Translations under genes and position numbers: made by a program | NCBI GenBank assembly: GCA_903830425.1 | Contig: CAIKTR010000161.1 | Coordinates: 1-43,525, forward strand | Origin: an uncultured Opitutia bacterium | Lineage (GTDB): Bacteria > Verrucomicrobiota > Verrucomicrobiia > Opitutales > Opitutaceae | Direction of reading: 5' to 3' | DNA length: 43,525 bases | Shown: positions 13,336-38,038 of the stretch, one piece after another | How the letters are laid out: each line of letters opens with the position of its first letter | Numbering within the stretch: the first letter of the stretch is position 1 | The notes under the pieces: generated by a model | The model's input: only the letters and a program-made list of their open reading frames with translations | The model's database searches: none | What the model was told of the DNA's origin: nothing

Positions 13336-14010
13336 TCAGCGCGGTGGCATGGGTGAGGCGCTGCCGCCACTGCCCAGTCGGGAGGCCAGGGTAAAACCGT
13401 GGTCGCGAGCGTAGCGCATCAGCTGCACCGTGGTCGGCAGGCCAAATTTTTTCAGGATATTGAAGCGGTGCTTTTCCGCCGTCTTCGGCGCGATGCCCAG
13501 CCGCCCGGCAATGTCCGTATCGGAGAGCGCGGAACCGACCATGGAGAGGACCACCCGCTCGCGCTCGGTCAGCAGCTTGTCAAACGAATGGGGATCGCGG
13601 TGGCGGTTCGCCTTGATGCGCAGGAACAGATCGGAAAAATAGGTCTGACCCTGGCCCACGGCGGTGATGGCCGCCTTCAGGGCCATGACACTGCTGGTGT
13701 TTTTGTCCACGAAGCCCTGCACGCGGGCCTTTTCCGCGCGGAACACGGTATAGTCATCGCAGTGTGACGAGAGCGCGAGGATGCGAACCAGCGGAGTCGC
13801 CTGCCGCAACGCCTCGGCCACCTCGAAGCCGTCCAGTTTGGGCAGATGGAGGTCGAGCAGCACCAAATCAGGCAGCGTCGTGATCGCCAGTTGCACCGCC
13901 ACCCGGCCATCGGCGGCCTCCCCGACGACCTCGTGACCCAACTCGTCGGCGCAGACCGTGCGCAGTACTTCGCGGAACATCTCATGGTCCTCGACGATGA
14001 CGATCTTCAT
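13336..14010 (-). CDS. NarL/FixJ-family response regulator
   Basis: 224 residues. The receiver domain has the acidic pocket (VEDHE), the phospho-acceptor Asp53 in LLDLHLPKLDG, and the conserved Lys region near FVDKNTSS. The C-terminal LuxR-type helix-turn-helix starts LTERERVVLSMV and contains IAGRLGIAPKTAEKHRFNILKKFG. ATG 14010 is preceded by a clear AAGGAG ribosome site (14018-14023) with a 7-base spacer; a TTG one codon earlier is less likely. No sensor kinase is in the window. It starts 23 bases after the secreted-protein gene on the same strand, so it is probably the last gene of the pseudopilin operon or at least tied to it. Its target promoters are unknown. Confidence 0.9.
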   Translation of the reverse strand: MKIVIVEDHEMFREVLRTVCADELGHEVVGEAADGRVAVQLAITTLPDLVLLDLHLPKLDGFEVAEALRQATPLVRILALSSHCDDYTVFRAEKARVQGFVDKNTSSVMALKAAITAVGQGQTYFSDLFLRIKANRHRDPHSFDKLLTERERVVLSMVGSALSDTDIAGRLGIAPKTAEKHRFNILKKFGLPTTVQLMRYARDHGFTLASRLGSGGSASPMPPR

Positions 14011-14033: not shown

Positions 14034-14771
14034 CTATTCGCTAGACGGCCCCCGCGTCAGTAATAATCCCGGCCGGCCGTCAGCGTAGCCTGACCGCTGG
14101 GCCTGAGTCGGCATGTCTCGCAACAGGCGTGACTGAACCTCCAGCGCCCCAGGTTGATAGGGTGGCAGGAGGAGCAACAGGGCCCGCTCCGCCGGCTCCA
14201 GTCGGATGGTGTCGGCGAAGGCGCGGTAGCTCCGCCCCTGAAATGAGGTCCGCAGTTGGATCTCCGCGACGGGCTTCAGCGACCAGCGCAGGTCCGCCTG
14301 AACCGGCACCGCGACCCTGCGCCGATTGACGGTTCCCTCCAAGGTCAGGCCGCTGGCATTGAGCAGCCGCAATTCGCCCACCGCATGTCGCGCGGGGTCG
14401 TCATCGATCACCCAAACCCGGAGCGGCGCGGTGGCGCCCGGCTGGTCGCCGGTCAACAGGACCAACAGCGCGCGCCGAATATCAGGCGGCACTGTTGCCT
14501 CGGCCATGAGCGCTCCCGTTGGCGCGTCGTAGATCCGCAGCGGGTCTGGCCCGCGGTAGACACCGGGCGCCGAACGGGCGGTGGGATGCAGCACCAGGGT
14601 CCGCGGTTCGGTCCCGGCCTGTGGTTCGTACGCCAGCCTGGGCATGGGCTCGGGCGAGAACACGGTAAACGCAAGCACCCTCCCCTGCCCCGTTGCAGGT
14701 TCGGTGTCAGCCACCACCGGAGCGGTGAGCAGGACCGCCAGCAAACCTAGATGTCGGATTGATTGAGCCAT
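14034..14771 (-). CDS. Secreted protein of unknown function, pseudopilin operon
   Basis: 245 residues. The N-terminus MAQSIRHLGLLAVLLTAPVVA looks like a Sec signal peptide with cleavage near VVA/DTEP; the remainder looks soluble and beta-rich, with many Val/Arg/Leu strands. I recognise no domain. The frame is open to 14897, but ATG 14771 gives the signal peptide and a 25-base overlap with the end of the preceding gene, which suggests translational coupling. Its place between the giant GspK-like protein and the response regulator suggests an envelope accessory role in the same system, but this rests only on position. Confidence 0.7.
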   Translation of the reverse strand: MAQSIRHLGLLAVLLTAPVVADTEPATGQGRVLAFTVFSPEPMPRLAYEPQAGTEPRTLVLHPTARSAPGVYRGPDPLRIYDAPTGALMAEATVPPDIRRALLVLLTGDQPGATAPLRVWVIDDDPARHAVGELRLLNASGLTLEGTVNRRRVAVPVQADLRWSLKPVAEIQLRTSFQGRSYRAFADTIRLEPAERALLLLLPPYQPGALEVQSRLLRDMPTQAQRSGYADGRPGLLLTRGPSSE

Positions 14772-17700
14772 CGAAAGGTGCGGACGACAAAGCGCCGGCC
14801 ATACGCCTGATTGGTTGCCCCGAGTTCCCCTGGCGCGATCGCCGGATCCTGACGCGCCTCGCGATACTCCGGCAGGCGCTGGATGATCGCCTCGCACCAG
14901 GCCCGCGCCGTGGTCGCGGTGGTGGCCGGATTAACCGCGTCCCCGTAGGCACGGATGCGAAACGTGTCTGACCGGACCAACAGCACCGGCGCCAGCGCCG
15001 TCATCAGATCACCCTGGGTGAGTCGCTGGCTGCTGAATTCCGGCACGCTGGTCGGATCATTGATCGGCCGGCCATCCTCCGTCGTGCTGTCCAGCGCGGC
15101 CTCGAGCAGGCTGCGACCGTCGAACAATGCAGAGGGGGCCAGAAATTCCTCCAAGGTCCGGAAGGGACCCGCCGCCGCCTGCCGTTGCCGCAGCAATTCG
15201 ACGACCCGGGCCGCCAGGGCCCGCGTCGCCGCAGGAGCAATCGTGCGCAGTCCGCGGCGGAACAGGTGCGTGTTGGCGGGCGAGGACGGATTCGGCTCCG
15301 CCGGCGGAGTGGTGGTGCTGGCGGCGTATCCCGCGTCGGCCCGGTACGTCTCCTGCGCGGAAAAGGGAAAACGGTAAAACCGCAGGTCGTCCGCGGCGGA
15401 CACCGCGGTCTCGACTGCCCCTGAGGTGCCCGAGGAAACCTGTGCCGCGACGAACCTGAAATCGCCGTCGCCGCCGACCCGACTGCCGCGCAGGACCGCC
15501 AGCCAGGCACTCGGCTGGACCGAGTTCAGGTTAAAGGCGCCGCCCTGCAGCCAATATTTCGAGGAATAGCCGGCCGCGCTATTCGCCGCGACCTGAGCGA
15601 GGGTCGGAAGGGAGCCAGCGGCCGTCGCGGTGACAGGGTCGATCAGCGAATTGGGCAGCGAGGCGCCGGCGGGGAGTCCACGCGCCACCACCTCTGCGTT
15701 GAGCCCAGAGAAAAAATACTGGTCGAACAGGGCGTTCCACCGTCCAGAGCTTCCCCACGGATTGCCCAAGGCAAAGGGGCGTGTGCCCGCGGTGTGCACG
15801 TGCTGCAGCGCACCCAACGAAAGCAGTGGCCCGCGCGGCAATTCGAAGAGCGGGGCATCCTCGTTATAGGACTGACCGGTGGCACTGGCGCCGCTGCCCG
15901 GGAGTGCCCGGTCAAGCAGCCGGTCGGGAAACGAGATGCTCGTGTAGTTGGCGTAGAGTTCGGGACGAGGGCCGTTCGCGCCGGGCAGATAACTGCCCGC
16001 AGGCAGCGCCGTCTCGCGCGGATCCTGACCGCCGGTGCTCAGCCAAACGTCCGGAGTGGCGGGCAGGTCGGTGCCTTCCATGAGGTGAAAGACGTAGGTG
16101 AATTGATACGTCGCCTGGTTAATCGGCGCCGGCGTGGTGATGAAGGCGCTGAAGACGGGGCTGGAGAACGTGCGCAGCAGCTCGCGCGCGCCGCTGCCCG
16201 CGCCACGAAAGAGGCGCACGGTCAACTGGGTCTGATTACCCTGCAGGTGGACCAGGGCGGCATTGGCCAGACTGGTCCCCGCCACCGCACGCTGGACGCC
16301 CTGCCCCGCCGCCGTGCTGAGCGTCCGGGTGTAGAAGGCACTGGCAAAGCCAGTCGCCGGGACCGGAGTGTGTTTGTTCAGGTCCTGCCGCGCCGACCAG
16401 GTATAGACCCGGCCGGGCAGCCAGGACTGCTGGTCGTCACGGCCGGTGGTTTCCCACGGCAGGTTGATCCGCAGAGGCGCCCCGAATAGTTCCTCGAGCG
16501 ACAGGCCCGGCAAAGTCGTGCCGTCACTAACGCCCACCACCACGGTCGGCAGGCCGGTCACCTCCAGTTGCAATTCCTCCGGCACCAGGGCGCTGCTGTA
16601 GGGATTCCAGCAGGAGACGAGCCAACGAGCCCGCACTTCAAGCGGACGCACCGCGCCACTGACCGCCTGATCGGTGCGGAGATTGAAGGTGAGCAGGAAA
16701 TAGGACAGCAGCGGCGCGACGCCGTGGGTGATCCCGGCATCCGTCCGGGGCGGAGTCAGGCGGTAGCGACGCCGCAAGGACTCCGCGGGATGTTCCGCGG
16801 GATAGGCTGGTGCCGGTTGCGGCGAAAGCGGGACCGCCGGATCTTCCATGTACGCACCATAATCGGCCCAGGCGGCGAAGGCGGACCCGAGCAAATCGGG
16901 CTGGAGCGACAAATCCTGACGCAGCCCGCCCGTCCGAGTGTTGGCCAGGACCGCCCGATGATTCACCGTCCAGGCGTGGAAGTAGGGTCGTAGTGCGTCG
17001 CCACCGAGTGGGGTTACCCCATCGGCGAGTTTGAGCCGGGCAAGCTGGTTGAAGTCCGCCACCCTGGGCAGCAGAGGCAGATTGGCGGGATCGCGCGGCT
17101 CGAAGACCGCGTGACCGGAGAGGTCCGCGGGCCCCGCGCCTAGCGCGAGTTGCTGGGAGACGCGACTGCGTAGCTCCAGTGAGTCAAACGGTGGACAGGT
17201 AAGCGCGGCGCCCCGTCCGTCCACACCGACGGACGCCTTCACCCCTTCATCACCTACCCACCATGCGTAATGGCCGACCGTCGCCGCCCCACCCTGCCCC
17301 GGAACCGCGTTCGCCGCGATCGCCTGCAGGGGTGCCACCACATCGCCAGGCAGGCCCGAGGTCCCCGCGCCGACCAGCTCCACGGCGTGAAATTCGCTGG
17401 AGGGAGTAATTCCGGCCGCCACCCGCTCATTGCCACTCACGAGCCAGGTAAGGGGTGCGACGGAGGTGTCCGCCGAGTCCCAGACTCCGGTGTAGTGGGT
17501 GGTGCCGCCGACCCCGCCCAACGCGGCCGCGGTGGCGGTCACCCGGGTGTCCGGGCCGGCATATTTCTGCAGTCGTCCGAGAGCAATCGAAAGTGCCAGG
17601 AGGGCATGCTGCCGGGCCGTGGACTGCTGGAGGGCATGGTCCACGATGTTTCCCTCAATCCGTGAGAGGATCGCCAGCGAAGTCAGCAGGGTCACGAGAA

Positions 17701-17791
17701 ACCCCAGCAGGACCAGAGTCAGCATCACCGCGAATCCGGCCGCCCGTGGGGTGCCGCGGCGGCGGCCATCAGTTGTGGGAGCAGCGGCCAT
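14747..17791 (-). CDS. Verru_Chthon cassette protein A; giant GspK-like minor pseudopilin
   Basis: 1014 residues. After a basic leader (RRRGTPRAAG) comes a hydrophobic helix FAVMLTLVLLGFLVTLLTSL and then an amphipathic continuation, the shape of a prepilin N-terminus with Gly at -1. Residue 5 of the predicted mature chain is Leu, not Glu; among T2SS pseudopilins, loss of Glu5 is the hallmark of the tip protein GspK. The C-terminal 150 residues also resemble GspK in layout: a segment FRTLEEFLAPSALFD, then RSDTFRIRAYGD. Ordinary GspK is about 300-350 residues, so this version has roughly 650 extra residues, rich in Gly/Ala/Ser/Thr and probably mostly extracytoplasmic. It is the last prepilin of the operon, matching the H-I-J-K order. 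Its start lies 3 bases after the stop of protein C. Confidence 0.85.
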   Translation of the reverse strand: MAAAPTTDGRRRGTPRAAGFAVMLTLVLLGFLVTLLTSLAILSRIEGNIVDHALQQSTARQHALLALSIALGRLQKYAGPDTRVTATAAALGGVGGTTHYTGVWDSADTSVAPLTWLVSGNERVAAGITPSSEFHAVELVGAGTSGLPGDVVAPLQAIAANAVPGQGGAATVGHYAWWVGDEGVKASVGVDGRGAALTCPPFDSLELRSRVSQQLALGAGPADLSGHAVFEPRDPANLPLLPRVADFNQLARLKLADGVTPLGGDALRPYFHAWTVNHRAVLANTRTGGLRQDLSLQPDLLGSAFAAWADYGAYMEDPAVPLSPQPAPAYPAEHPAESLRRRYRLTPPRTDAGITHGVAPLLSYFLLTFNLRTDQAVSGAVRPLEVRARWLVSCWNPYSSALVPEELQLEVTGLPTVVVGVSDGTTLPGLSLEELFGAPLRINLPWETTGRDDQQSWLPGRVYTWSARQDLNKHTPVPATGFASAFYTRTLSTAAGQGVQRAVAGTSLANAALVHLQGNQTQLTVRLFRGAGSGARELLRTFSSPVFSAFITTPAPINQATYQFTYVFHLMEGTDLPATPDVWLSTGGQDPRETALPAGSYLPGANGPRPELYANYTSISFPDRLLDRALPGSGASATGQSYNEDAPLFELPRGPLLSLGALQHVHTAGTRPFALGNPWGSSGRWNALFDQYFFSGLNAEVVARGLPAGASLPNSLIDPVTATAAGSLPTLAQVAANSAAGYSSKYWLQGGAFNLNSVQPSAWLAVLRGSRVGGDGDFRFVAAQVSSGTSGAVETAVSAADDLRFYRFPFSAQETYRADAGYAASTTTPPAEPNPSSPANTHLFRRGLRTIAPAATRALAARVVELLRQRQAAAGPFRTLEEFLAPSALFDGRSLLEAALDSTTEDGRPINDPTSVPEFSSQRLTQGDLMTALAPVLLVRSDTFRIRAYGDAVNPATTATTARAWCEAIIQRLPEYREARQDPAIAPGELGATNQAYGRRFVVRTFRWLNQSDI

Positions 17792-17794
17792 TGT

Positions 17795-18760
17795 TCAGAG
17801 GATTGCCGCCGGCAGCACGATCCGGCGGGTGAAGACGCGTGAATGGGTGCGTGCGATTTCCCACCAATCACCTGGGCGCTGCTGGCCCTCCAGCCCCGCG
17901 ATCTGGCGGGCGCCTTCGGTCGTGAGCATCCGCAGCATCACGTCGATGACGCAGGGTCCACCATGAACGGGGGCGCCGCCTAACGGGGGTGAGGCTTGGT
18001 TGAACTCAAGGTCCAACGCTTTGTCTGGGAAAATCTGCCTGAGTCCCGTGCCGCTGTACGGGCGGCTGGCAGGCCGGCCCTGGATCCGCACGCCGAAATC
18101 GATGACGTCCTCCGCCAGGACCTGACGCCCCAGCGGACTCACGAGGTTGCCCGGCGCACCTGCGATTGTGGCAGGGCGCCGGTAGGCGTCGGCGCTGAGA
18201 TCATAGCCCGCATCGAACGTCGCGGCGGAGCTGATCTCCGCCCGGTAGAGCAGATAGCGGCAGTCCGCACGGCCATCCGCCAGCGTCCGCCGGATGATCT
18301 GGTACGACACCGCCACCGGTGCCGCGGGGTCGCCCGTGCGCGGGTCTGCTCCGGGGGGAGTGGTGAAGAGTCGCAGCCAAACGCCCGCCACGCCAAAGCG
18401 CATGTCGGCCAGCGTCGCCGCGGCCAGTTCGAGCGACCCCGCAGACGGCTTGCCCCCCTCCACCCACTGCCCGCTCGCACCCAGTCCTGGCTGGACGGTG
18501 GCGGCGAGCCACACGCTCCCGTCGTCGCGGCGCCACGCGCCCTGGAGATCCTGGGCCAATTGGTCGAGCACACGCTGGCCTCGGCTCTCGAGGGAGATGC
18601 GACCTTGGGTTCGGTTCCAGGTCCCAAGCAAGTTCACCCCCAGCCCCAGCAGCAGAGTCGCCAGCATTGCGGTCAAGCCGGCGGCCACGAGGAGTTCGAG
18701 TACCGTAAATCCGCTGACCGGTCCCGGCTCTCCGGTTCGTTCCGCGCGTTTCGGTCTCAT
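17795..18760 (-). CDS. Verru_Chthon cassette protein C; GspJ-like pseudopilin
   Basis: 321 residues. A short basic leader is followed by a class III prepilin signal, G at -1 and FTVLELLVAAGLTAML, with Glu5 present. The region just after the helix (SRGQRVLDQLAQDLQGAWRR) resembles the corresponding region of GspJ/PilW-type minor pseudopilins. Length is greater than typical GspJ (about 200-240). The start overlaps the stop of protein B as ATGA, so the two are translationally coupled. Predicted role: minor subunit of the pseudopilus tip complex together with proteins B and A. Confidence 0.85.
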   Translation of the reverse strand: MRPKRAERTGEPGPVSGFTVLELLVAAGLTAMLATLLLGLGVNLLGTWNRTQGRISLESRGQRVLDQLAQDLQGAWRRDDGSVWLAATVQPGLGASGQWVEGGKPSAGSLELAAATLADMRFGVAGVWLRLFTTPPGADPRTGDPAAPVAVSYQIIRRTLADGRADCRYLLYRAEISSAATFDAGYDLSADAYRRPATIAGAPGNLVSPLGRQVLAEDVIDFGVRIQGRPASRPYSGTGLRQIFPDKALDLEFNQASPPLGGAPVHGGPCVIDVMLRMLTTEGARQIAGLEGQQRPGDWWEIARTHSRVFTRRIVLPAAIL

Positions 18761-19344
18761 GGGGTCACCGCCAAGTTTAACACCGCGGTCGAAGCCTGAC
18801 TCAGATCAGCCGTCACGGCGGCCGAACCCTCCGGCCCCAACTTCGACTGGTAGGGCCAGCGGACCTTGGCCGAGACCGCGAGGAAACCCGCGCCAGCGAC
18901 ATAGGCCAGATTCCCGGACTGCTGCCGCACCTCGATCAAAAAATAGCGGTCGCCCGGCACCAGTCCCAGTTCCGGATCACCGGCTTCACTCTCCCGCACG
19001 ATCCGCAGTCCATCGAGCGATCCGACCAAGCGGAGGGATTGGCTGCTGGCACTTCCCGGGATCAATGTCGCCAGCACGTCGAGTCCCCCGGCCGGGTCGT
19101 CACCGGGAAGCGCGTCCCGCAGCCGGAGGAGTTCCAAGGTCACGGCATCAGCCAGGTGCACGGCTTGCTGGCGCGCGGCCATTTCCCCTGCCGCTCGGCT
19201 GCTGGCCGCCAGCAGGGCAACCAGCGCGACGACGGTGACCGCGACCATGCCGATGGCCACAATCACCTCCACCAGCGTGAAAGCCGGATCCTGGGAAATA
19301 GGCTCCGGATCCGGCGGCGCGATGACTGCTTGTGCCGAGATCAT
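18757..19344 (-). CDS. Verru_Chthon cassette protein B; GspI-like pseudopilin
   Basis: 195 residues. Prepilin-like N-terminus with an unusual 24-residue leader containing Pro and acidic residues, Ala at -1, then FTLVEVIVAIGMVAVTVVAL with Glu5. The FTLVEV helix followed by a short soluble domain fits the GspI type. ATG 19344 was chosen over an open frame running to 19455, because it leaves a 16-base gap after protein D and keeps the leader short. It lies between the GspH-like and GspJ-like proteins, as in classic T2SS pseudopilin operons. Confidence 0.83.
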   Translation of the reverse strand: MISAQAVIAPPDPEPISQDPAFTLVEVIVAIGMVAVTVVALVALLAASSRAAGEMAARQQAVHLADAVTLELLRLRDALPGDDPAGGLDVLATLIPGSASSQSLRLVGSLDGLRIVRESEAGDPELGLVPGDRYFLIEVRQQSGNLAYVAGAGFLAVSAKVRWPYQSKLGPEGSAAVTADLSQASTAVLNLAVTP

Positions 19345-19360
19345 CTGGATGGAGCGGGGG

Positions 19361-20026
19361 CTAGATCCCAAAACCCGAGGCCTGATTGACCAGGAGCGGC
19401 ACGCCATAGGCACTGAGCACCGCACCACAGGCCCGGGCGGGGTCGTGAAACTCAACCCCGAGGGGCAGACGCCGCGCTGGGGCCAGCACCAACCGATCGC
19501 CGCCTTTACTCTCGGGCGCCCCCCCTGGGTCGAAAGGCGAGGTCATCTGGAGGTAGAGCCCGGCATGATGGCCAGCCGCGCTCGTGATCGTCCCCGCCGC
19601 GGCCAGTTGCAGGGACGAGTGGCACTGGGGCGGCCAGGCCCCCGGCGGACCAGCGAACACGACCCCGTTGGCCGTGGAGCTTTCCGGCACGATAAACACT
19701 CCGGCGGGCAGAAGTACGTCGTCCGAACGCGTCTGCCACTGGCCCGAGCCCGGCGCCGTCTCCACCGCCAAGTGCATCCGCCGGAGAAACCCCTCGCCCG
19801 CCGGATCCGCATCCACCACGAGCATGGCACGGTTCTCTCCCAACGCCGCCTGACCACGGGCCGCGGCCAGCATGCGGGCGACCCGGCCCTGGCCCTCCTG
19901 CAAGGCCCCCGCCGAATCTCCGCCCTGCAGCGCCCGAGCCAGCAGGCCGGTGAACAGCGCGATGAGGCCGAGCACCATCAGTAGCTCGATCAGGGTAAAG
20001 GCACTGGACCGGTCCCGTTTCATCAT
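19361..20026 (-). CDS. Verru_Chthon cassette protein D; GspH-like pseudopilin
   Basis: 221 residues. Leader MMKRDRSSA, then FTLIELLMVLGLIALFTGLL with Glu5 and Ala at -1. The helix continues into a region rich in Gln/Ala/Arg (GRVARMLAAARGQAALGENRAMLVVD), which resembles GspH/FimT, where this segment is followed by a beta-domain. The start ATG 20026 overlaps the previous stop as ATGA. It is the first member of the D-B-C-A set in transcription order. Confidence 0.83.
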   Translation of the reverse strand: MMKRDRSSAFTLIELLMVLGLIALFTGLLARALQGGDSAGALQEGQGRVARMLAAARGQAALGENRAMLVVDADPAGEGFLRRMHLAVETAPGSGQWQTRSDDVLLPAGVFIVPESSTANGVVFAGPPGAWPPQCHSSLQLAAAGTITSAAGHHAGLYLQMTSPFDPGGAPESKGGDRLVLAPARRLPLGVEFHDPARACGAVLSAYGVPLLVNQASGFGI

Positions 20027-20676
20027 TTCCAGCTGAACACCAGGTCGCTCGCCCGGGTGCCGGGACCCGCCGAGTAAAAAATTACGCCGGCCCGGATGCC
20101 CACCCCCAGGTCCAGATCGCTGACCGCGGGGGCATACGCGTCGGTGCGGCCCAGCCCGCACACCGACTGCACTGAACCGTCCGCCCCGGTGATCTGTCCA
20201 TCACCGTTCCGGTCGCAGAGCACGGCGATGTCCGAGTTGCCGAAGGCGTCGACCAGCGCCGTCCGGGTCTCATTCAACTCATCTTCGGTGAGGGCGTAGA
20301 ATGCCGTCTGCGTGAGGTTCCCCGCGAGATGATCCGGCGCCGCCACGGCCGCGCCCTGCAGCGACTTCCCGGTGAGGGCCCCGGCAAACAGCCTTGGCTC
20401 CACTTTGCCGCTGCCGCCGTCGATCACCGGGTAATAGCCATACTCCTGGCGGAAGGACTCCATCGCGCCGCCCCATTGGGCAAACAGCACCTTGGTCTTG
20501 GCCCGCCGGGCCGCGACCCGCACGGACAGGGTGGCCGGCAGGAGAATGCCGGCGAGCACGCCAACGATCGCGATCACCGTCAGGAGTTCGATCAAGGTGA
20601 ACGCGACAGGCCGATGGGCGCAGGGGCCCGTTACCGGACCAGCCGGGTCGCGATTGAAAATTCCTCGGGGCCTCAT
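20023..20676 (-). CDS. GspG-like pseudopilin with EF-hand-like loop
   Basis: 217 residues. A leader of about 24 residues ends in Ala at -1, followed by FTLIELLTVIAIVGVLAGIL (Glu5 present) and an alpha-1 extension containing FRQEYGYYPV, the typical GspG/pilin transition. Residues 155-166 read DRNGDGQITGAD, which fits a 12-residue EF-hand calcium loop at positions 1, 3, 5, 6, 8 and 12 (bases 20179-20214). Calcium binding is common in major pseudopilins but normally through a different loop. ATG 20676 overlaps the preceding stop as ATGA; the frame is open further upstream but that part overlaps the previous gene. Confidence 0.82.
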   Translation of the reverse strand: MRPRGIFNRDPAGPVTGPCAHRPVAFTLIELLTVIAIVGVLAGILLPATLSVRVAARRAKTKVLFAQWGGAMESFRQEYGYYPVIDGGSGKVEPRLFAGALTGKSLQGAAVAAPDHLAGNLTQTAFYALTEDELNETRTALVDAFGNSDIAVLCDRNGDGQITGADGSVQSVCGLGRTDAYAPAVSDLDLGVGIRAGVIFYSAGPGTRASDLVFSWK

Positions 20677-21272
20677 GGGACGGCGTAGATATTCCGGGCA
20701 TTCAGGGCTGAGCTGGAAATGACACCGCCCTGCTCCCCGGAGCGCGCGGGCACGACCTCCGAACCCAGCGGCAGGGCTTCGCGCCCCTCGAGCGGTCCGT
20801 AGGAGAAGAGGACAAACCCGCTGACCGGGGGCAGCGACGCGAGTGTCCGGGTGTAGGCGATGTACTGATAGGGCCGGCCCCACGGATCCACCCAACTGTT
20901 GTCCGGATCGTCCGGGTGCGCGGGATCCAGCAGCGAAATCCGGACGGTGCCCAGCATGCTGCGCCCGGCGATTTCAGCGCCGGTCGGCCCCAGCCGGCCA
21001 AGCAACGCCCGGTGCAGCGTCGCCGGCGAATCAACCGTCTGGGGATAGTCGCCATATTCACGCCGGTAGGACTCCAGCATCTGACCTAGCATCGCCAGTT
21101 CGGCGCGCGCCAGCCCGATGGCCGCCCGTTCCTTCGCTCCGCGCCAGAGGCCCCACCCGCCGGCCGTGAGCACCGCGATGACGCTGATCACCACCAGCAA
21201 CTCGATCAGCGTGAAGCCCGCCGCACGCCGTCGGATCTCAGGACGGAGCTGGACTGTCGGGGCGCGCCGCAT
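20673..21272 (-). CDS. GspG-type major pseudopilin
   Basis: 199 residues. Basic leader ending RRRAAG, then FTLIELLVVISVIAVLTAG with Gly -1 and Glu5. The mature part has YRREYGDYPQT followed by WVDPWGRPYQYI (near 120-130), the motif that marks the T2SS major pseudopilin GspG. ATG 21272 was preferred; a TTG at 21287 would add five residues but has its ribosome-site-like AGGA directly against the codon. It is the first gene of the six-prepilin operon, with an AT-rich promoter region upstream. Confidence 0.85.
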   Translation of the reverse strand: MRRAPTVQLRPEIRRRAAGFTLIELLVVISVIAVLTAGGWGLWRGAKERAAIGLARAELAMLGQMLESYRREYGDYPQTVDSPATLHRALLGRLGPTGAEIAGRSMLGTVRISLLDPAHPDDPDNSWVDPWGRPYQYIAYTRTLASLPPVSGFVLFSYGPLEGREALPLGSEVVPARSGEQGGVISSSALNARNIYAVP

Positions 21273-24728: not shown

Positions 24729-26483
24729 ATGCACAGTTTTTCCGAGCAATGTCTCGATATGGCCCGCTCAATGCTGGCCCACAACCTCGACTCCATCCAG
24801 CCCGACGGAACGATCCTGCCCGCCAACGGCGAGGAGTCCCGTCCCGACGAACCCGGCCATGTCGCCTTCGCGCTGGGGGAATTCTACCGCGCCACCGGCG
24901 AAACCACCCTCAAGGGCTATGACCTGATCGATCTCGCCGCGCGCTGCATCACGGCCCAGATGTTCACCGAGCCCGCGGCCGAAAACGGCCTCGCCTACGC
25001 CTCGCTCGGCCTCCTCGCCTTCGGCCCCTCCAAGGAGCGCAACCCCGTCTGGGAACGCCTCGTCGAGGAAACCCGCGAGCGCATCGACAAGCAGCTGCTG
25101 CACCGCAGCGACTACGACAACCACTGGCAGGCCTTCAACATCGCCAAGGCCGTCGCCCGTTTCAGCCTCGGGCTCTCCAAGAAGGACGAGACCTCGCGCC
25201 TGATCGAGCGCATGGTTGAGCGGATCACCGCGACCAGCTCGGCCAGCTTCTTCGACGACGCGACCTCGGGCTTCGGCGGCAACTTCAATCTCTACGGCGT
25301 GATGAACTTCGTGTTCATCCGCTCGGCGCTCCAGCTCCACGCCAACAGCGGCGTGCGCGACCGCAAGCTCCCCACCCTCCGGACCTACGCCGAGAAGTAC
25401 ATCAAGATGATGCCCGACCTCGTCCGCGCGGACGGCCTGGGCTGGGCGTTCGGCCGCGCCGCCGGGGCCTACGGCCAGATGCACTGCATCAGCCTGCTGC
25501 TGCAGGGCCTGCGCGACGGCTGGATCGCCGACGACCAGAAGATGAAGTATTACGACATCCTCCGGCGGCTGTTCATGTTTTTCTACGAGACCTACCTCGA
25601 CCAGGAGCAGGGCTTTCTCGACCTGCGCGACGACGAGCGCACCACGTACGCGCCGCACACGACGCGGATGGCGAACTTCGACGCCGCCCGCTACCTCTGC
25701 CAGTGGTCCCGCCTGGCCAAGACCGTCTCGATGCCGGTTGGCGCCCCGAAGATCGAGCCGCCGCGCACCTCGGGCCGCTTCGTCATCTTCGATAAGAGCA
25801 ACCGCAAGGAGCAGGGCCTCTTCCTCTATCGCGACGCCGAGAGCGGCCTGCACACGCAGATCCCGCTGATCAGCTCCGGCACCACGCTCACCAGCGACTC
25901 CCTCCCCTTCCCCCACTGCCCCGGGGTGTTCGACTGGCCCAACAACGTCTACCTGCCGGTCATGCTCCCCGAGCTGACCTTCGGCGAGCACGTCACCCTC
26001 CCGGCGTTCTACGGCAAGAACTGCGTCACCGGCCTCGGCCTGCGCAACAGCTTCTACTTCCGCTACGAGCAGCCCGAGCTCATCACCACCAAGGAGGAGT
26101 TCGTCAAGAACCTCGGCAGCGTGAAGGTCCAGTGGAACTTCGCCGGCAGCAAGATCAGCTGCGAGTTCGCCTACACCGTGAAGCAGGCCGTCACCCTCGA
26201 CAAGTTCCGCTACGTCCTCGCCATCGCCGCGCCGCACTCGAAGTACCATGTCAACGGCGCGCTCGCGCTCGGCCCCCAGGGCCACCGCTGCACCGTCGCC
26301 AAGGATGACTTCCAGGGCACCTGGCAGGAAACCGAGATTGTCAGCGCCGATCCGGCCTACCGGACCAACTACGGCAAGATCCACTACCTGCAGTACCTGA
26401 TCCGCGACCATCCGCTCATCATGCGCCCCGGGCATGTCTACCGCCTCGCGGTGAACTTCGAGCCCGACGTGACGCACGTCTGA
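24729..26483 (+). CDS. Uncharacterised 584-residue protein, helical plus beta domains
   Basis: I do not recognise the family. There is no signal peptide or membrane segment, so it is probably cytoplasmic. Residues 1 to about 330 are rich in predicted helices with repeated Trp/Tyr/Phe-rich segments (NHWQAFNIAKAVARF, GLGWAFGRAAGAYGQMHC), reminiscent of alpha/alpha-toroid folds of polysaccharide lyases and related hydrolases. After a Pro-rich linker (near 335-350) the rest looks beta-sandwich-like (GRFVIFDKSN, SCEFAYTVKQAV). This two-domain layout resembles heparinase/alginate-lyase-type enzymes, but no catalytic motif can be assigned. It lies 85 bases after the short rho and is followed by a possible terminator. 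Confidence 0.75.
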   Translation: MHSFSEQCLDMARSMLAHNLDSIQPDGTILPANGEESRPDEPGHVAFALGEFYRATGETTLKGYDLIDLAARCITAQMFTEPAAENGLAYASLGLLAFGPSKERNPVWERLVEETRERIDKQLLHRSDYDNHWQAFNIAKAVARFSLGLSKKDETSRLIERMVERITATSSASFFDDATSGFGGNFNLYGVMNFVFIRSALQLHANSGVRDRKLPTLRTYAEKYIKMMPDLVRADGLGWAFGRAAGAYGQMHCISLLLQGLRDGWIADDQKMKYYDILRRLFMFFYETYLDQEQGFLDLRDDERTTYAPHTTRMANFDAARYLCQWSRLAKTVSMPVGAPKIEPPRTSGRFVIFDKSNRKEQGLFLYRDAESGLHTQIPLISSGTTLTSDSLPFPHCPGVFDWPNNVYLPVMLPELTFGEHVTLPAFYGKNCVTGLGLRNSFYFRYEQPELITTKEEFVKNLGSVKVQWNFAGSKISCEFAYTVKQAVTLDKFRYVLAIAAPHSKYHVNGALALGPQGHRCTVAKDDFQGTWQETEIVSADPAYRTNYGKIHYLQYLIRDHPLIMRPGHVYRLAVNFEPDVTHV

Positions 26484-32213: not shown

Positions 32214-33491
32214 TCACTGCAGGTGCTGGATCACGCTCACAATCGGCAGGAAGAGCGCGATCACGATGAAGCCGACCATCAGCGCCATCAGCACCACCAG
32301 GATCGGCTCCAGGAGCGCGGTCAGGCCCGCCACGGCATTGTCGACCTCCTCGTCATAGATGTCGGCCAGCCGGCCCAGCAGGGGCGGCAGCGACCCCGTC
32401 TCCTCCCCCACCGCCATCATCCCGGTGACCAGGCCGGGAAATACCGCCGTCGCCTCCAGCGACCGCGCCAGACCGTCCCCTTGCTTGATTCGTTCCTGCG
32501 CCGCAGTGAGGGCGGCGGCGACCGGGGCATGGCCACACGTCGCCCGCGCCAGGGCCAGGGCCTCGAGAATCGCCACCCCGCTCGCCAGCAGCGTACCCAG
32601 GGTGCGGGTGAAGCGGGCAATGGCGGCCTTGAGCACCAGGTCCCCGAGGAGGGGCAACAGGAGGATCAGGCGGTCGCCGAGCCGGGCACCAAGCACCGTC
32701 CGGCGGACCCGCTGCAGCCCAAACCCCAGCAGGACGCACGCCGCGAGGATCAGCCCCGCCTGCTCCCGGATGACGGCACTCAGCCCGAGCAGGACGCGGG
32801 TGGGCGCCGGGAGCGGCTGGCCCCGAAGCAGGCCGGAAAATATCAGCTCAAACTTCGGCACCACCAGGACCAGCAGCACGGCCATGATGCCCGCCGCGAC
32901 CGTCATGAGGATGGCGGGATAGATCAGGGCGGTCTTGACCCGGCCCCGCAGTCGCTCGGTTTTTTCCAGGAAGTGCGCCAGCCGGTCCAGCACGACCCCG
33001 AGGACTCCTCCCGCCTCCCCGGCCTGCACCATGCCGACATACAGTGCGCCAAAGAGCCGGGGCCGCTGCCGCAGCCCGTCGGAGAGCATCCCGCCGGCCC
33101 CGATCCCCTCCGTCAATTCCTCCAGCACCCGCCGGAAACGCGGGCTGCGCTCCTGGCGTCCCAGAATCTCCAGCCCGCGGGTGAGCGGCAGACCCGCATT
33201 GACCAGGGTGGCCAGCTGGCGCGTGAAGAGCATCAGGCCCCGCCGGCTGACCTCCGGCCCAAAATCCACCCCGCGCCACCCAAGAAACGCACGCCTGGTC
33301 TCCGGGGCGCGGCCGCCCGGCCGCGACGGGCCACTGGCCGCCGGCCCAATCGGCTCCACCTGCAGGGTCGTGGGCGCCAGCCCCTGGGCCTTGAGCCGGT
33401 TGGATGCCTGCGCCCGACTGGAGCCCTCGATGGAGCCTCGGCGCTCCCGCCCCGAACTCCGTTCAACCGCCGTGTAGGTGTAGGTTGCCAT
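32214..33491 (-). CDS. gspF: T2SS/T4P inner-membrane platform protein GspF/PilC
   Basis: 425 residues. Start MATYTYTAVERSSG is the family N-terminus. Two repeats of the GspF domain: the first with FTRQLATLVNAGLPLTRGLEIL, the second with FTRTLGTLLASGVAILEALALA, each followed by a hydrophobic segment, plus a final membrane segment (LLEPILVVLMALMVGFIVIA). It recruits the assembly ATPase and pulls pseudopilin or pilin subunits from the membrane. It starts 2 bases after the upstream ATPase gene on the same strand, so the two are surely co-expressed. PilC of type IV pili is the same family; the ATPase neighbours do not decide between them. Confidence 0.93.
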   Translation of the reverse strand: MATYTYTAVERSSGRERRGSIEGSSRAQASNRLKAQGLAPTTLQVEPIGPAASGPSRPGGRAPETRRAFLGWRGVDFGPEVSRRGLMLFTRQLATLVNAGLPLTRGLEILGRQERSPRFRRVLEELTEGIGAGGMLSDGLRQRPRLFGALYVGMVQAGEAGGVLGVVLDRLAHFLEKTERLRGRVKTALIYPAILMTVAAGIMAVLLVLVVPKFELIFSGLLRGQPLPAPTRVLLGLSAVIREQAGLILAACVLLGFGLQRVRRTVLGARLGDRLILLLPLLGDLVLKAAIARFTRTLGTLLASGVAILEALALARATCGHAPVAAALTAAQERIKQGDGLARSLEATAVFPGLVTGMMAVGEETGSLPPLLGRLADIYDEEVDNAVAGLTALLEPILVVLMALMVGFIVIALFLPIVSVIQHLQ

Positions 33492-33493
33492 AG

Positions 33494-35185
33494 TCAGGTA
33501 TGCGCGAGAACTTCCTCCAGGGTCGTCTCGCCGGCATGAATCGCCCGCCAGCCCTCGGCCCGCAGGCTCCGCCGGCCCTCCCGCTGGGCCTGCTGGCGGA
33601 TCTCCAGCTCCGTGGCCCCGACGTTGACCCGTTCGCGCAGCGCCTCCGTCATCGGCAGCCACTCGAACAAACCCAGGCGCCCCCGGTAGCCCGTCTGGGC
33701 GCAGGCCGGGCAGCCCGCGCCATGGAAAAACTCGCCGGTTCGTGCGTCCTCCGGCGCGCCGCCGGCCAGGCGCAGGAGTTCGGGCGGGGGCACCCGGACC
33801 GTCCGGCACTGCGGACAGATGCGCCGCACCAGGCGCTGCGCCAGCACGCCCTCCACTGCCGTCGCCACTAGAAAGGCCTCCACGCCGAGGTCCAGCAGCC
33901 GGGTGACGGCCGCCGGGGCGTCGTTGGTGTGCAGCGTCGTCAGCACCAGGTGGCCCGTCAGCGCCGCCTGCATCGCAATCTGCGCCGTCTCCAGGTCCCG
34001 GACCTCGCCGACCATGATCACATCCGGATCCTGGCGCAGGAACGCCCGCATCGCGGCGGCAAACGTCAGGCCGATCCCCGGGTTGACCGGCACCTGCAGG
34101 GCGCCTTCCAACTCGTATTCGACCGGATCCTCCGCGGTGAGCAGCTTCAGGCCAATGTCATTGATGGCCCGCAGGCCGCTGTAGAGCGTCGTCGTCTTGC
34201 CGGAGCCCGTCGGACCCGTGACGATCAAAATTCCATGGGGCCGCCGCACGGTCCGCTCGACGTCGGTCCGCACCTCCGGGGGCATCCCCAGCTCGGCCAG
34301 CTCGAGGTGCACCGCGGACTGGTCCAGCACGCGCAGCACGATGCTCTCGCCAAACTGGGTTGGCAGAGTGGAAACGCGCAGGTCCACCGCATGATCCACC
34401 AGCGAGGCGCGGATCCGCCCGTCCTGCGGCACCCGGCGCTCGGCAATGTCCAGGTCCGCGAGCACCTTGAGGCGCGAGGCGATCGGCAGGGCCAGCGCCT
34501 TGGCGGGCGGGGTCATCTCGTGCAGCACGCCGTCGATCCGGTAGCGGATTTTGAATTCCTCCTCGAACGGCTCGAAATGGATGTCGCTCGCGTGGTCGCG
34601 CACCGCCTGGGCCAGGACCAGATTCACGAACCGGATGACCGGAGCCTGCCCGGCCAGCGCGGCCAGATCAGCCGGCGTGTAGTCGCGCGTTTCGGGGTCG
34701 GGTGCGCAGCCCGGGCCTGCCGCCACCAATTCTGCGGCTTGCACCGGGCCTTCACCGTAATGCCGGCGGAGCAGGCGCTCGACCTGCGCCGGGTCACAGA
34801 CCAAGGCCCGGACCTCGCGACCCAGGGCAAAACCCAACTCCGCCAGCGACTGGGCGTCGAACGGGTCGAGCACGAGCAGTTCCAGACAACGCGCATCCCC
34901 CCGCAGCGGCAGGACGCCGTAGTGGCGCGCAAAATGTGCGGGCAGCAGTTTGACGACGTCGGCGGGGAGCGACTCCGGCGGGGCCGCGACATATTCACTG
35001 CCCAGTTGGAGGGCGATCGCCGCCAGCAACTCGGACCGGCTCAACCGCCCCTGCGCGAGCACGAGGTCGGCCAGCGATGCACCCGTAACGAGAGACTGTT
35101 GCCTTAGGGCTTCGAGTGGCGCGGCTCTGACCAGACCTTGATTTTGGAGTAGTTCGCGGAGTGCCTCGTTATGGCGCTCGAACAT
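33494..35185 (-). CDS. gspE: GspE/PilB-family assembly ATPase (copy next to gspF)
   Basis: 563 residues. An N-terminal MshEN-like domain (about 1-150) is degenerate in its first repeat, followed by the core: PVIRFVNLVLAQAVRDHASDIHFEP, Walker [14 protein letters not shown] (about 322-334), Asp box EDPVEYELEG, Walker B VIMVGEVRDLETA, His box LTTLHTNDA, and a zinc-binding cysteine set CPQC...CPAC near 495-530. All catalytic motifs are intact. ATG 35185 chosen because it gives the family N-terminus and lies 14 bases after the pilT stop. It drives assembly with GspF. The second ATPase at 36302 is similar but clearly separate. Confidence 0.92.
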   Translation of the reverse strand: MFERHNEALRELLQNQGLVRAAPLEALRQQSLVTGASLADLVLAQGRLSRSELLAAIALQLGSEYVAAPPESLPADVVKLLPAHFARHYGVLPLRGDARCLELLVLDPFDAQSLAELGFALGREVRALVCDPAQVERLLRRHYGEGPVQAAELVAAGPGCAPDPETRDYTPADLAALAGQAPVIRFVNLVLAQAVRDHASDIHFEPFEEEFKIRYRIDGVLHEMTPPAKALALPIASRLKVLADLDIAERRVPQDGRIRASLVDHAVDLRVSTLPTQFGESIVLRVLDQSAVHLELAELGMPPEVRTDVERTVRRPHGILIVTGPTGSGKTTTLYSGLRAINDIGLKLLTAEDPVEYELEGALQVPVNPGIGLTFAAAMRAFLRQDPDVIMVGEVRDLETAQIAMQAALTGHLVLTTLHTNDAPAAVTRLLDLGVEAFLVATAVEGVLAQRLVRRICPQCRTVRVPPPELLRLAGGAPEDARTGEFFHGAGCPACAQTGYRGRLGLFEWLPMTEALRERVNVGATELEIRQQAQREGRRSLRAEGWRAIHAGETTLEEVLAHT

Positions 35186-35199
35186 GCATCCGCATCGTC

Positions 35200-36282
35200 T
35201 CAGAGCGTCTTCAATTGCGCTCCGCCCGCCACCAGTTTGTCCCGCATGACCACCGGGTCCTGCGCTTTTTCCACACACTCGTCCGCGCTGATCAGCTCGC
35301 GGTTGAAGAGACTCATCAGATGGGTGTCCATCGTGATCATGCCCAGGTTCGCCCCGGTCTGGATGTCGGAGTTGATCCGGAAGGTCTTGTTCTCGCGGAT
35401 CAGGGACGCGATCGAGGTCGTGTTGATCATGATCTCGTAGCCCGCGATGCGGCCGCCGCCGATTTTCTTGCAGAGCACCTGGGAGATCACGGCCTGCACC
35501 GAGGAGGCCAGCTGGGTCCGGATCATGTCCTTCATGTTCGCCGGGAACGCGTCCACGATGCGGTCGATCGTCTTGGCCGCGCCGTTGGTGTGCAGCGTGC
35601 CGAAGACCAGGTGGCCGGTCTCGGCCGCGCTGATCGCCGCCTCGATCGTCTCCAGATCGCGCATTTCACCCACCAGGATGATGTCCGGGTCCTGCCGCAG
35701 CGCCCGCCGGATGGCCTCGGAAAAGCTTGGCACATCCGAGTGCACCTCGCGCTGCGTGACCACGCAGCGTTTGTGATTGTGGTAATACTCGATCGGGTCC
35801 TCGACCGTGATGATGTGGCCGTCCCGGTTCTCGTTGATGTAATTGATCATCGAGGCCAGCGTGGTGGACTTGCCGGAGCCGGTCGGGCCGGTGACGAGGA
35901 TGAGGCCGCGCGGGCGGTAGAGGAGCTCGCGGATCTTGTCCGGCAGGCCAATGTCGCGCAGGCCGAACATTTTGTAGGGGATCTGGCGGAGCACCAGGCC
36001 GTAGTTGCCCTTGGCGCGGAGGACGGACACGCGGAAGCGCGCCTTGTCGCCGAAGGCGAAGCCGAAGTCGGCGCCGCCGTTGAGCTTCACGTTGCTGATG
36101 TGGCTGTCGGGCGTGATCGCCTGCATCAGCTTCTCGGTGTCGGCGGGGGTGAGCGCGGGTCCGTCGATCGGCGTCATGCTCCCGCTGAGCCGGAGTGTGG
36201 GGGGCTGGTTGACCTGCAGGTGGAGATCGGAAGCGTTTTGCTCGACGACCAGTTCGAGCAGGTCGTTCATTTCGTAGCTCAT
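35200..36282 (-). CDS. pilT: Twitching motility ATPase PilT
   Basis: Retraction ATPase of type IV pili; 360 residues, normal length. Motifs: [17 protein letters not shown] at the N-terminus, Walker [13 protein letters not shown] (about 130-141), [19 protein letters not shown], Walker [15 protein letters not shown], His box [17 protein letters not shown], and the C-terminal retraction-type signature [14 protein letters not shown], a variant of AIRNLIRE. ATG 36282 is used; a TTG at 36318 would overlap the neighbouring gene. It lies 19 bases after the stop of the upstream ATPase and 14 bases before the next. Presence of pilT suggests that at least part of this set serves a retractable pilus. Confidence 0.93.
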
Positions 36283-36301
36283 GGTGGATGCAGGGGTGGG
36301 A

Positions 36302-38038
36302 TTAGCTGGCGTCGCCAACCGTGATAGAGACGACTTCCTCGACTGTGGTCAAACCAGCGCTGACTTTGCGAGCCCCGTCCTCACGTAGGGTGACCAGGCC
36401 CCGGGCCCGGGCTTTCGCCCGCAGGCGCCCCAGGCTCGCCTGGGCGTGGATCAGGGAGCGGATGTCGTCGTCGATCTCCAGCAGCTCAAAGATCCCGATC
36501 CGCCCGTGGTAGCCGCTGCCGTGGCAGGCCGCGCACCCCCGCCCCCGCATGAACACCGGGCCCCCACCCGGCTCCCGGTTTAGGCCCAGGGCCCGCAACT
36601 CCGCCAGCGTGGACCGGAACGGCTGCCGGCACGCCCCACAGATTTTTCGCACCAGGCGCTGGGCCAGGATGCCCCGCAGGGACGCCGCGAGCAGAAAGGG
36701 CGCGATGCCCAGATTCACCATCCGCGGCACCGCCCCCGGGGCATCGTTCGTGTGCAGCGTGCTGAGGACCAGGTGACCGGTCAGCGAGGCATGCACGGCC
36801 ATCCCCGCCGTCTCACCATCCCGGATTTCGCCCACCATGATGACATTGGGCGCCTGACGCAGCATCGCCCGCAACGCCGCCCCGAACGTCAGACCGACCT
36901 CCGGCCGGACCGGCACTTGGTTGATCCCGCTCAACTGGTACTCGACCGGGTCCTCGACCGTGATGATCTTGCGGCCGCCCGTGTTGAGGTGGTGCAGGCA
37001 GCCGTAGAGCGTCGTCGTCTTGCCGGAGCCCGTCGGCCCCGTCACCAGCAGGATCCCGTCGGGTCGCGTGATCCACTGCTCGAGCAACGCGGCCTGTTCC
37101 GGGGATAAACCCAGTTCCGGCAGCCCGCGTTTCAGGCTCTCCTGGTCCAACACGCGCAGGACGAGGCTTTCGCCATGCGATGTGGGCAGCGTGGACACCC
37201 GCAGGTCCAGCGGGCGCCCGCCGTGGGACAACTGGATCCGCCCGTCCTGCGGCAGGCGCTTCTCTGCGATGCTGATGTTGGCCATGAGCTTGACCCGCGA
37301 GAGGATCGCGGACTGCAGTCGCGGCGGCGGACAGTCCACTTCCACCAGCACGCCATCAATCCGGTACCGAACCCGCAGCCGCCGCCCCAGTGGCTCGAGA
37401 TGGATGTCCGAGGCCCGACGGTCGATCGCCGCGTGGATGAGCGCGTGGACCAGCCGGATGACGGGTGCATCTTCGTCACCAGCCCAGGAACTCGCCCCTG
37501 GCTTGGACTGGTCCGCCGCGTCGGCGTGTGGCCCGGGTGATTGCGGGGGTGGGTCGCTGGCCTCGCCCACGGCGCCCGTGGCCGCCGGGCGATACAGCCG
37601 CTCGATCGCTCGGGCGATTTCCTCCGCCGGGGCCAGTCGGGTGGCTATTTTCACGCCCAGCCGGTGGGCCAGGCTGTCGGCGCCAGCGGTGTCGAGCGGG
37701 TCACAGACGGCGATCTGCAGTTCACCCGCGTTGCGGGCCAGCGGCACGAGGCGGTGACGTTCCGCCCATGCCTGGGGCACCTGGGCGAGCAAATCGTCCG
37801 CAACGACCACTGCGGAAAGATCGACCGTCTCCAGACCGAACCATTCGGCCTGCAACGCGGCCGCCTGCCAGCCGGTCAGCACGCCCTCGCCCACCCATGC
37901 GTCCACCCACGACCTCGGTGAACCTCCCGCAGCTGCCTGGCGACTGATGACCCGCTGGACCGACTCGAGCTGTGCCGGGCTCAACAATCCCTTGTCGAGC
38001 GCCAGCTGCAGCACGGGGTCGTCTGCGCGGGTGGTCAC
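36302..38038 (-). CDS. pilB: PilB/GspE-family assembly ATPase (copy next to rho)
   Basis: 578 residues. N-terminal degenerate MshEN-like region (about 1-150), then an acidic/Pro-rich linker, the core with [21 protein letters not shown], Walker [14 protein letters not shown] (about 330-342), Asp box [10 protein letters not shown], Walker [14 protein letters not shown], His box LSTLHTNDA, and the zinc cysteines CGAC...CAAC. Everything needed for ATPase action is present. The start is GTG at 38038, nine bases after the rho stop. With pilT it may be the extension/retraction pair, while the gspE/gspF pair might serve secretion; sequence alone does not settle this. Confidence 0.9.

Follow-up and report, generated by a model that had tools for sequence, protein, structure and literature searches.

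In an uncultured Opitutia bacterium (Opitutaceae), six adjacent prepilin genes, named here G1, G2, D, B, C and A, belong to a cassette that probably provides the tip-forming minor prepilins of a type IV filament machine of Verrucomicrobiota. The cassette lies on a stretch of 43,525 nucleotides (contig CAIKTR010000161.1 of assembly GCA_903830425.1), the whole of which is called the window below. Its gene order is strictly conserved in relatives, its products correspond class by class to the pseudopilins GspG-H-I-J-K of the type II secretion system (T2SS), and the last of them, the giant protein A, is predicted to have a GspK fold. The assignment to a pilus machine rests on the neighbourhood of the cassette, on its distribution and on one reduced genus.

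The operon is transcribed from the minus strand in the order G1, G2, D, B, C, A, X and response regulator; positions 14034-21272 span G1 to X, and the regulator lies outside them, at 13336-14010. The sequence-only reading of this DNA had described two GspG-like genes followed by D, B, C and A, coupled by ATGA or very short gaps, and the coordinates confirm this: ATGA overlaps are found at G1/G2, G2/D and B/C, gaps of 16 and 3 nucleotides separate D from B and C from A, and A and X overlap by 25 nucleotides. G1 (199 amino acids (aa), 20673-21272) is a GspG-like prepilin that matches Pfam T2SSG with 26.3 bits (cut-off 21) and TIGR01710 with 41.9 bits, under the cut-off of 88.85. G2 (217 aa, 20023-20676), a second GspG-like prepilin, reaches 32.6 bits against TIGR01710, also under the cut-off. 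They are followed by the minor prepilins D (221 aa, 19361-20026), GspH-like by scans of its members and by profile comparison, B (195 aa, 18757-19344), GspI/PilV-like and the weakest assignment, and C (321 aa, 17795-18760), GspJ-like by its trimmed profile. A (1014 aa, 14747-17791) reads as a giant GspK-like tip prepilin from the comparison of its C-terminal third with GspK and from an AlphaFold model. A prepilin motif with glutamate at +5 (Glu5) is present in G1, G2, D, B and C, while A has GFAVML without it. The absence of Glu5 from A, already pointed out from the letters alone, extends to the family, since none of 67 A proteins has it, and neither does any of 30 GspK-like sequences; such counts are uninformative for the other classes, where Glu5 was a selection criterion.

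The taxonomic family of the window is represented by 61 genomes, 46 of which have an A match; A was also matched in 39 public-genome loci from Opitutae, Opitutaceae, Akkermansiaceae, other Verrucomicrobia and one Kiritimatiellota. Of the 43 mapped loci, 35 hold D, B, C and A, and the order is D-B-C-A in all 35; most of the others are truncated by the end of a contig or locus, the window's short locus L001 being one of these, or carry a solitary A. The C profile gives E-values below 1e-20 in 44 of the 61 family genomes, and at best 2e-8, or no match, in the other 17; in the window's own genome its next-best hit is the prepilin that stands fourth, in J position, on another contig, C164. Outside the family, among 20 loci hand-picked from the phylum-wide list, D, B, C and A follow one another in this order in 12 and partially in 3, and do not in 5, one of these negatives being a 3.3-kb contig. 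Several of the 12 carry two to four GspG-like genes. Two genomes (G005 and G053) gave 301 and 197 first-look candidates with the C profile, against 8-63 elsewhere; prepilin-like genes may have multiplied there on a large scale.

The sequence-only reading had also equated D, B, C and A with GspH, I, J and K. Single models give this equation uneven support. All scores of the window's proteins against the Gsp models are under the cut-offs (GspG 41.9 for 88.85, GspH 29.6 for 80, GspI 20.2 for 44.35), with no match for GspJ or GspK. Across the family (E <= 0.01), of 36 D members 34 match GspH and 30 match Verru_Chthon D; C members match Verru_Chthon C (33/36), HpsC (27/36) and GspJ (10/36), the window's own C having no GspJ match by sequence model; B members match Verru_Chthon B (26/35), GspI (20/35) and PilV (16/35). 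The match of the window's C to HpsC, a pseudopilin of hormogonium polysaccharide secretion, is N-terminal and reaches 30.5 bits for a cut-off of 200. At an E-value of 0.1, operonic A proteins match Verru_Chthon A and GspK equally often (23/35 each) and solitary A proteins nearly so (24/30 and 23/30), while the window's own A matches neither Verru_Chthon A nor any GspK model by sequence. When ten A proteins were scanned one by one, GspK matched within the first 60-75 residues in four and C-terminally in one (L102). Searches against PDB sequences gave mainly N-terminal pilin matches for the C and D profiles; for A they gave one chance row with the single protein and four rows with the profile, none of them GspK.

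The profile-profile comparison that had been proposed as a check does link the two series. Among the Gsp classes, G1 is closest to G, D to H, B to I, C to J and A to K (5/5 on the diagonal), and the true Verru_Chthon D, B, C and A likewise fall to H, I, J and K (4/4). When 28 N-terminal residues are removed from the profiles, hhalign probabilities (P), which are uncalibrated here, stay high for G1 with GspG (98.3), D with Verru_Chthon D (95.9) and Verru_Chthon D with GspH (93.1), and reach 68.6 for A with GspK and 62 for C with GspJ (next 9.9); D with GspH directly gives only 7.1. Trimmed G2 matches G1 (P 96.6) and not GspG directly (P 1.2). The GspK-like C-terminus ascribed to A is borne out, its C-terminal third giving P 90.7 against the GspK profile and eight short A proteins (412-540 aa) giving 92.8, with an alignment at FNLN(S/A), PFxSL and VRSDTFxIRAYG-like motifs. 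The GspK profile, built from 24 Verrucomicrobiota sequences chosen by NF037980 and three more of the phylum (L199, L202-L204, L208, L209 and the genome's own K, L214, being left out), may include some cassette-type sequences, so its comparison with A is not fully independent. Duplicate loci (L070, L075, L085 and L086) were left out; the A alignments (A1 and A2) also left out the A frames of L043, L050, L055, L059, L064, L072, L078, L080-L082, L095, L096 and L106, and another alignment (A5) the C of L107. The C-terminal comparison with GspK gives P 14.4 for solitary A and 6.3 for true Verru_Chthon A, and P 2.3 between the window-family A and Verru_Chthon A.

With only three gammaproteobacterial sequences per class as references, the full-length diagonal is kept for all nine profiles, for B by a narrow margin, and it is also kept with three sequences per class (two for K) from this family and its close kin. 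Trimmed signals mostly vanish with such small sets; in the gammaproteobacterial one, K is still the best class for the C-terminal part of A, but with P 3.8. On profile comparison, D, B, C and A thus appear as classes homologous to GspH, I, J and K, with a weak signal for B; the likeness of the operon to gspG-H-I-J-K stands as proposed, with five shared classes in an identical order.

This equation is strengthened by the fold predicted for A. The AlphaFold model of A (pLDDT 75, pTM 0.78, from 33 sequences) has as its top match in VIA-align 3ci0_K, the GspK of the GspI-J-K tip of enterotoxigenic Escherichia coli, with Z 13.4 and a root-mean-square deviation of 2.9; the next row has Z 5.9. The alignment covers 242 of 280 residues over the model range 48-1014. 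A, which with 1014 aa against 327 for E. coli GspK is about three times the usual size, looks in this model like a GspK with a greatly enlarged central region. Within it, residues ~357-600 (15992-16723, minus strand) would form a beta-sandwich-like insertion, with VIA-align rows at Z 5-6 to immunoglobulin- and C2-like sandwiches that perhaps reflect only a common arrangement. Judged by length and match ranges, the short A proteins of L099-L105 and L107 (412-540 aa) miss most of the middle, and those of 412-432 aa miss the region of residues ~357-600. A Pfam scan of 35 A proteins gave nothing informative. The lack of Glu5 together with the predicted GspK fold places A among the K subunits.

The set had further been identified with the Verru_Chthon D, B, C and A families, and this does not hold. 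Every curated Verru_Chthon cut-off is missed (D 22.4 for 70, B 20.6 for 51.4, C 16.0 for 256.5), so that membership by score was rejected; the A model (cut-off 332.3) matches neither the window's A nor anything else in its genome, and exceeds its cut-off in only 7 of 240 genomes searched across the phylum. Among 13 stretches with an over-cut-off Verru_Chthon A, three prepilins come after A in 8; the models of B, C and D, applied to two of these loci, recognize the three genes in this order in both. The true Verru_Chthon cassette is thus ordered A-B-C-D, whereas that of the window is D-B-C-A behind GspG-like genes. The two are related but distinct: the Verru_Chthon proteins A-D (TIGR02600, TIGR02598, TIGR02599 and TIGR02596) are homologous to the window set class by class, B, C and D have similar lengths in both, and both have a giant A without Glu5. 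Three of seven true Verru_Chthon loci (L148, L154 and L156) have, upstream of A and in its orientation, a very large open reading frame of ~1900-2500 aa, which is truncated in two of the three. The open-access literature, to which the search was confined, yielded nothing for the name of this cassette or its four TIGR accessions, subscription journals being outside its scope.

Behind A lies X (245 aa, 14034-14771, minus strand), a putative secreted all-beta protein whose signal peptide was recognized by eye. Once 64 candidates behind A genes had been filtered by length and hydrophobic start to 43, 42 of them proved to be one family. Of 28 operonic long A genes 22 have X next to them, against none of 8 operonic short ones (Fisher p 0.0001, uncorrected for ancestry), and so have at least 22 of 33 solitary A genes; these neighbour counts, restricted to loci with 700 bases left, are lower bounds, L042 having an X yet being counted without. 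This co-occurrence makes X a likely partner of A. X matches no NCBIfam or Pfam family; its model (pLDDT 86) best resembles the PepT2 ectodomain (Z 13.4), and its matches are of tandem beta-sandwich type. The response regulator (13336-14010, minus strand), with Pfam Response_reg and GerE (LuxR-type DNA-binding) domains, is beside X, among the mapped loci, only in the window, L032 and L034, and as a short piece in L031. Of the secreted protein and regulator initially said to be attached to the pseudopilus, the former accompanies most operonic long A genes, while the latter is confined to close relatives.

The genes that could drive a filament lie in the same window, some 11 kb from the cassette. 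These are, all on the minus strand, a platform protein of GspF/PilC type (32214-33809; GspF 372.9 bits for a cut-off of 424, PilC 342.8), assembly ATPase 2 of GspE/PilB type (33494-35278; GspE 582.0, PilB 572.1, both under cut-off), the retraction ATPase PilT (35200-36318; TIGR01420 451.1 bits for a cut-off of 319.1) and assembly ATPase 1, also of GspE/PilB type (36302-38038; GspE 597.4, PilB 564.7, both under cut-off). The GspE/F-like genes thus stand beside PilT, and no gspC, D, E, F, L or M adjoins the cassette. PilT, the only one over its cut-off, and an assembly motor are linked to the cassette in the window (32214-38038) and in six further genomes, a linkage that other genomes have lost. 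The conserved order is rho, ATPase 1, PilT, ATPase 2, platform, a gene for a 584-aa protein, rho, acs and cassette; it recurs in G031, G023 (the cassettes of these two being L072 and L074), G047, G040 and G037, and from ATPase 1 on in G043, where the contig ends. Among 52 genomes in which PilT is matched with at least 440 bits, 41 have the C of the cassette, against 3 of the 9 without such a match (Fisher p 0.011, uncorrected for ancestry).

Both Rho-type genes of the window keep the same places in relatives: the one at 23408-24643 matches Rho structures, and that at 38048-40066 reaches 526.9 bits for a Rho cut-off of 509.45 and has an N-terminal extension. The 584-aa protein (24729-26483), without NCBIfam match at 1e-5, is 77-93% identical in eight other stretches and adjoins the first rho gene in all of them.

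Elsewhere in the genome, contig C164 carries a run of four prepilins with a GspK-like gene (a full-length match, 47.9 bits for a cut-off of 130), then a possible GspL that no model names. Contig C42 carries a secretin (GspD 324.2 bits, cut-off 351.35), a PilB/GspE-type ATPase and an F-like protein, so called for where it lies and for its 24.6% identity to E. coli GspF. Contig C38 carries relatives of the Akkermansia proteins Amuc_1098 (349.8 bits for 750), Amuc_1101 (270.6 for 650) and Amuc_1100 (54.7 for 180), all under cut-off. Amuc_1098 is described as the predicted type IV pilus secretin of Akkermansia (PMC4960237). On a further contig, C105 (L117), a secretin lies near open reading frames that resemble by eye the ATPase and stalk proteins of type III secretion. 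A GspK-like match exists in 14 of the 17 cassette-negative genomes, never over the GspK cut-off; it is missing in the cassette-positive G024 and G045, and G018 has none beyond the A of its cassette.

The genus g45 indicates which of these machines the cassette may serve. It keeps a complete cassette, to which five of the seven prepilin-motif matches belong in each of its genomes G045 and G252 (98% and 97% complete). Each has one F/C-type frame and one secretin; G045, the one of the two searched for GspK, has no match at 1e-6. The secretins are 61-63% identical to that of C38, of Amuc_1098 type, and over 140 residues 27-29% identical to the GspD of the window's genome. Next to the secretin of G252 lie homologues of the PilM-like, Amuc_1100-like and third proteins of C38, the last two in one frame. 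Since no separate T2SS was found in this genus and its only secretin is of Amuc_1098 type, the cassette can be tied to an Amuc_1098-type machine, and the C38 homologues of Amuc_1098-1101, though under cut-off, are likely to be the envelope part that goes with it, a partnership inferred from g45. At the syntenic site of g45, ATPase 2 and the platform gene are kept while PilT and ATPase 1 are gone, which suggests that PilT is dispensable.

Taken as a pilus-tip set, the cassette would work as follows. D, B, C and A would be the equivalents of GspH, I, J and K, and the GspG-like G1 and G2 would be subunits of the filament. On the model of GspI-J-K, B, C and A would form a tip that primes filament growth, A being outermost and exposing its enlarged, partly beta-sandwich middle, with X as its likely secreted partner. 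The filament would be driven by the GspE/PilB- and GspF/PilC-type proteins of the window, could optionally be retracted by PilT, and would cross the outer membrane through the Amuc_1098-type secretin. The tip may have a role in adhesion or uptake.

Several observations weigh against this proposal. By score, the ATPases and platform protein of the window lean slightly to GspE and GspF, all cut-offs being missed, and the platform protein is 33.7% identical to E. coli GspF where the F-like protein of C42 reaches 24.6%. The motor genes are separated from the cassette by acs, rho and other genes, and in six genomes (G049, G020, G013, G048, G005 and G003) the best PilT lies more than 100 kb from it on one large contig. 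g45 is one genus, perhaps one event; it lacks PilT at the syntenic site, and no PilM-, Amuc_1100- or PilO-like gene was recognized in the 12 kb around the secretin of G045. Other points bear on the classes themselves. B, claimed to be GspI, has I as its best class at full length, yet its trimmed profile gives P 0.9, with no class signal beyond the N-terminus, so that this part of the equation holds at the N-terminus only. Trimmed profiles of true Verru_Chthon A and solitary A give P 2.9 and 5.2 with GspK, and Foldseek alone ranks 3ci0_K 25th for A, with an E-value of 0.22. Finally, G015, of the window's own genus, has no recognizable D or G1 at the locus.

The sequence-only reading had seen in the cassette a dedicated T2SS pseudopilus. 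A second pseudopilus of this kind, exporting particular substrates, perhaps X, is an unlikely alternative; neither the gene order nor the sequences of the H-I-J-K classes separate T2SS from type IV pili. The mapping to GspG-K, the GspK fold of A, the leaning of the motor proteins and the retention of the cassette in g45 without PilT at the syntenic site would all suit it. Its weight was raised, and that of the pilus lowered, by the platform protein of the window, which resembles E. coli GspF more than the F-like protein of C42 does. However, another G-H-I-J-K-like set and a D-E-F-like set exist elsewhere in the genome, GspK-like matches (none over cut-off) occur in most cassette-negative genomes, and the sole secretin of g45 is far closer to the Amuc_1098 type than to the GspD of the window's genome. 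Together with the synteny with PilT, this makes a T2SS parent less likely than an Amuc_1098-type pilus machine.

A competence pilus, with A as DNA receptor, is more doubtful still. Thermus ComZ, the closest published design found, is described as a tip pilin of GspK type in which a large beta domain has been inserted and binds DNA (PMC6561018), a design that A shares. However, the ComZ insertion is reported there as a beta-solenoid between the last two strands, while the middle of A partly resembles a beta-sandwich; the dozen A frames of the genome G041 also fit varied ligands better than DNA. That all these matches merely reflect the common prepilin N-terminus, the correspondence to H-I-J-K being accidental, is very improbable: single-protein matches do fall mostly in the first 60-75 residues, trimmed gammaproteobacterial profiles are mostly insignificant and B never resolves, but trimmed signals persist for G1-GspG, D-Verru_Chthon D, Verru_Chthon D-GspH, C-GspJ and A-GspK, and the fold of A and the strict gene order also speak against it.

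A pilus-tip cassette also finds a parallel in type IV pili, where minor pilins are encoded in the order FimU-PilV-PilW-PilX with PilY1. As there, H-I-J-K-like classes are followed by a non-pilin with a signal peptide, and PilT is in the neighbourhood; unlike there, X is a small tandem beta-sandwich and A has a GspK-type fold. X was considered as a PilY1 and not retained, as fold searches gave beta-sandwich proteins and no propeller recognizable as such a match, although these searches could have missed one.

Some genomes hold A genes apart from the core operon. G041 has a G1-G2-D-B-C set without A in the next 6 kb (L250) and 23 A matches, that is 12 distinct frames, elsewhere in the genome; G060 has G2-D-B-C without A (L253), and G035 a complete cassette with X (L251) and further A frames. 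Because core operons without A occur where A frames lie elsewhere, one scaffold may serve many tips: tentatively, a conserved G-H-I-J scaffold would be capped by any of many giant A proteins, most of them encoded with X. In a genome of the same class and another order, three neighbouring giant A genes (1358-1406 aa) lie at 4613-17999 of L180, and no X match was found for them at 1e-4. Verruconatronum is reported to have 67 pulG-like pseudopilin homologues and to over-express a pseudopilin on alginate (PMC13274419), all of them possible members of this system.

If the cassette does form pilus tips, four families so far known by cassette letter only would gain concrete structural roles, and a gene set of several Verrucomicrobiota lineages would be tied to a pilus machine of the Amuc_1098/Amuc_1100 type of Akkermansia. 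Exchangeable tips, if they exist, would explain the dozen giant prepilin-like genes of some of these bacteria, and one machine could then present a choice of receptors or adhesins, suited for instance to different polysaccharides; the Verru_Chthon A-B-C-D cassettes would in that case be similar tip sets, each of them complete.

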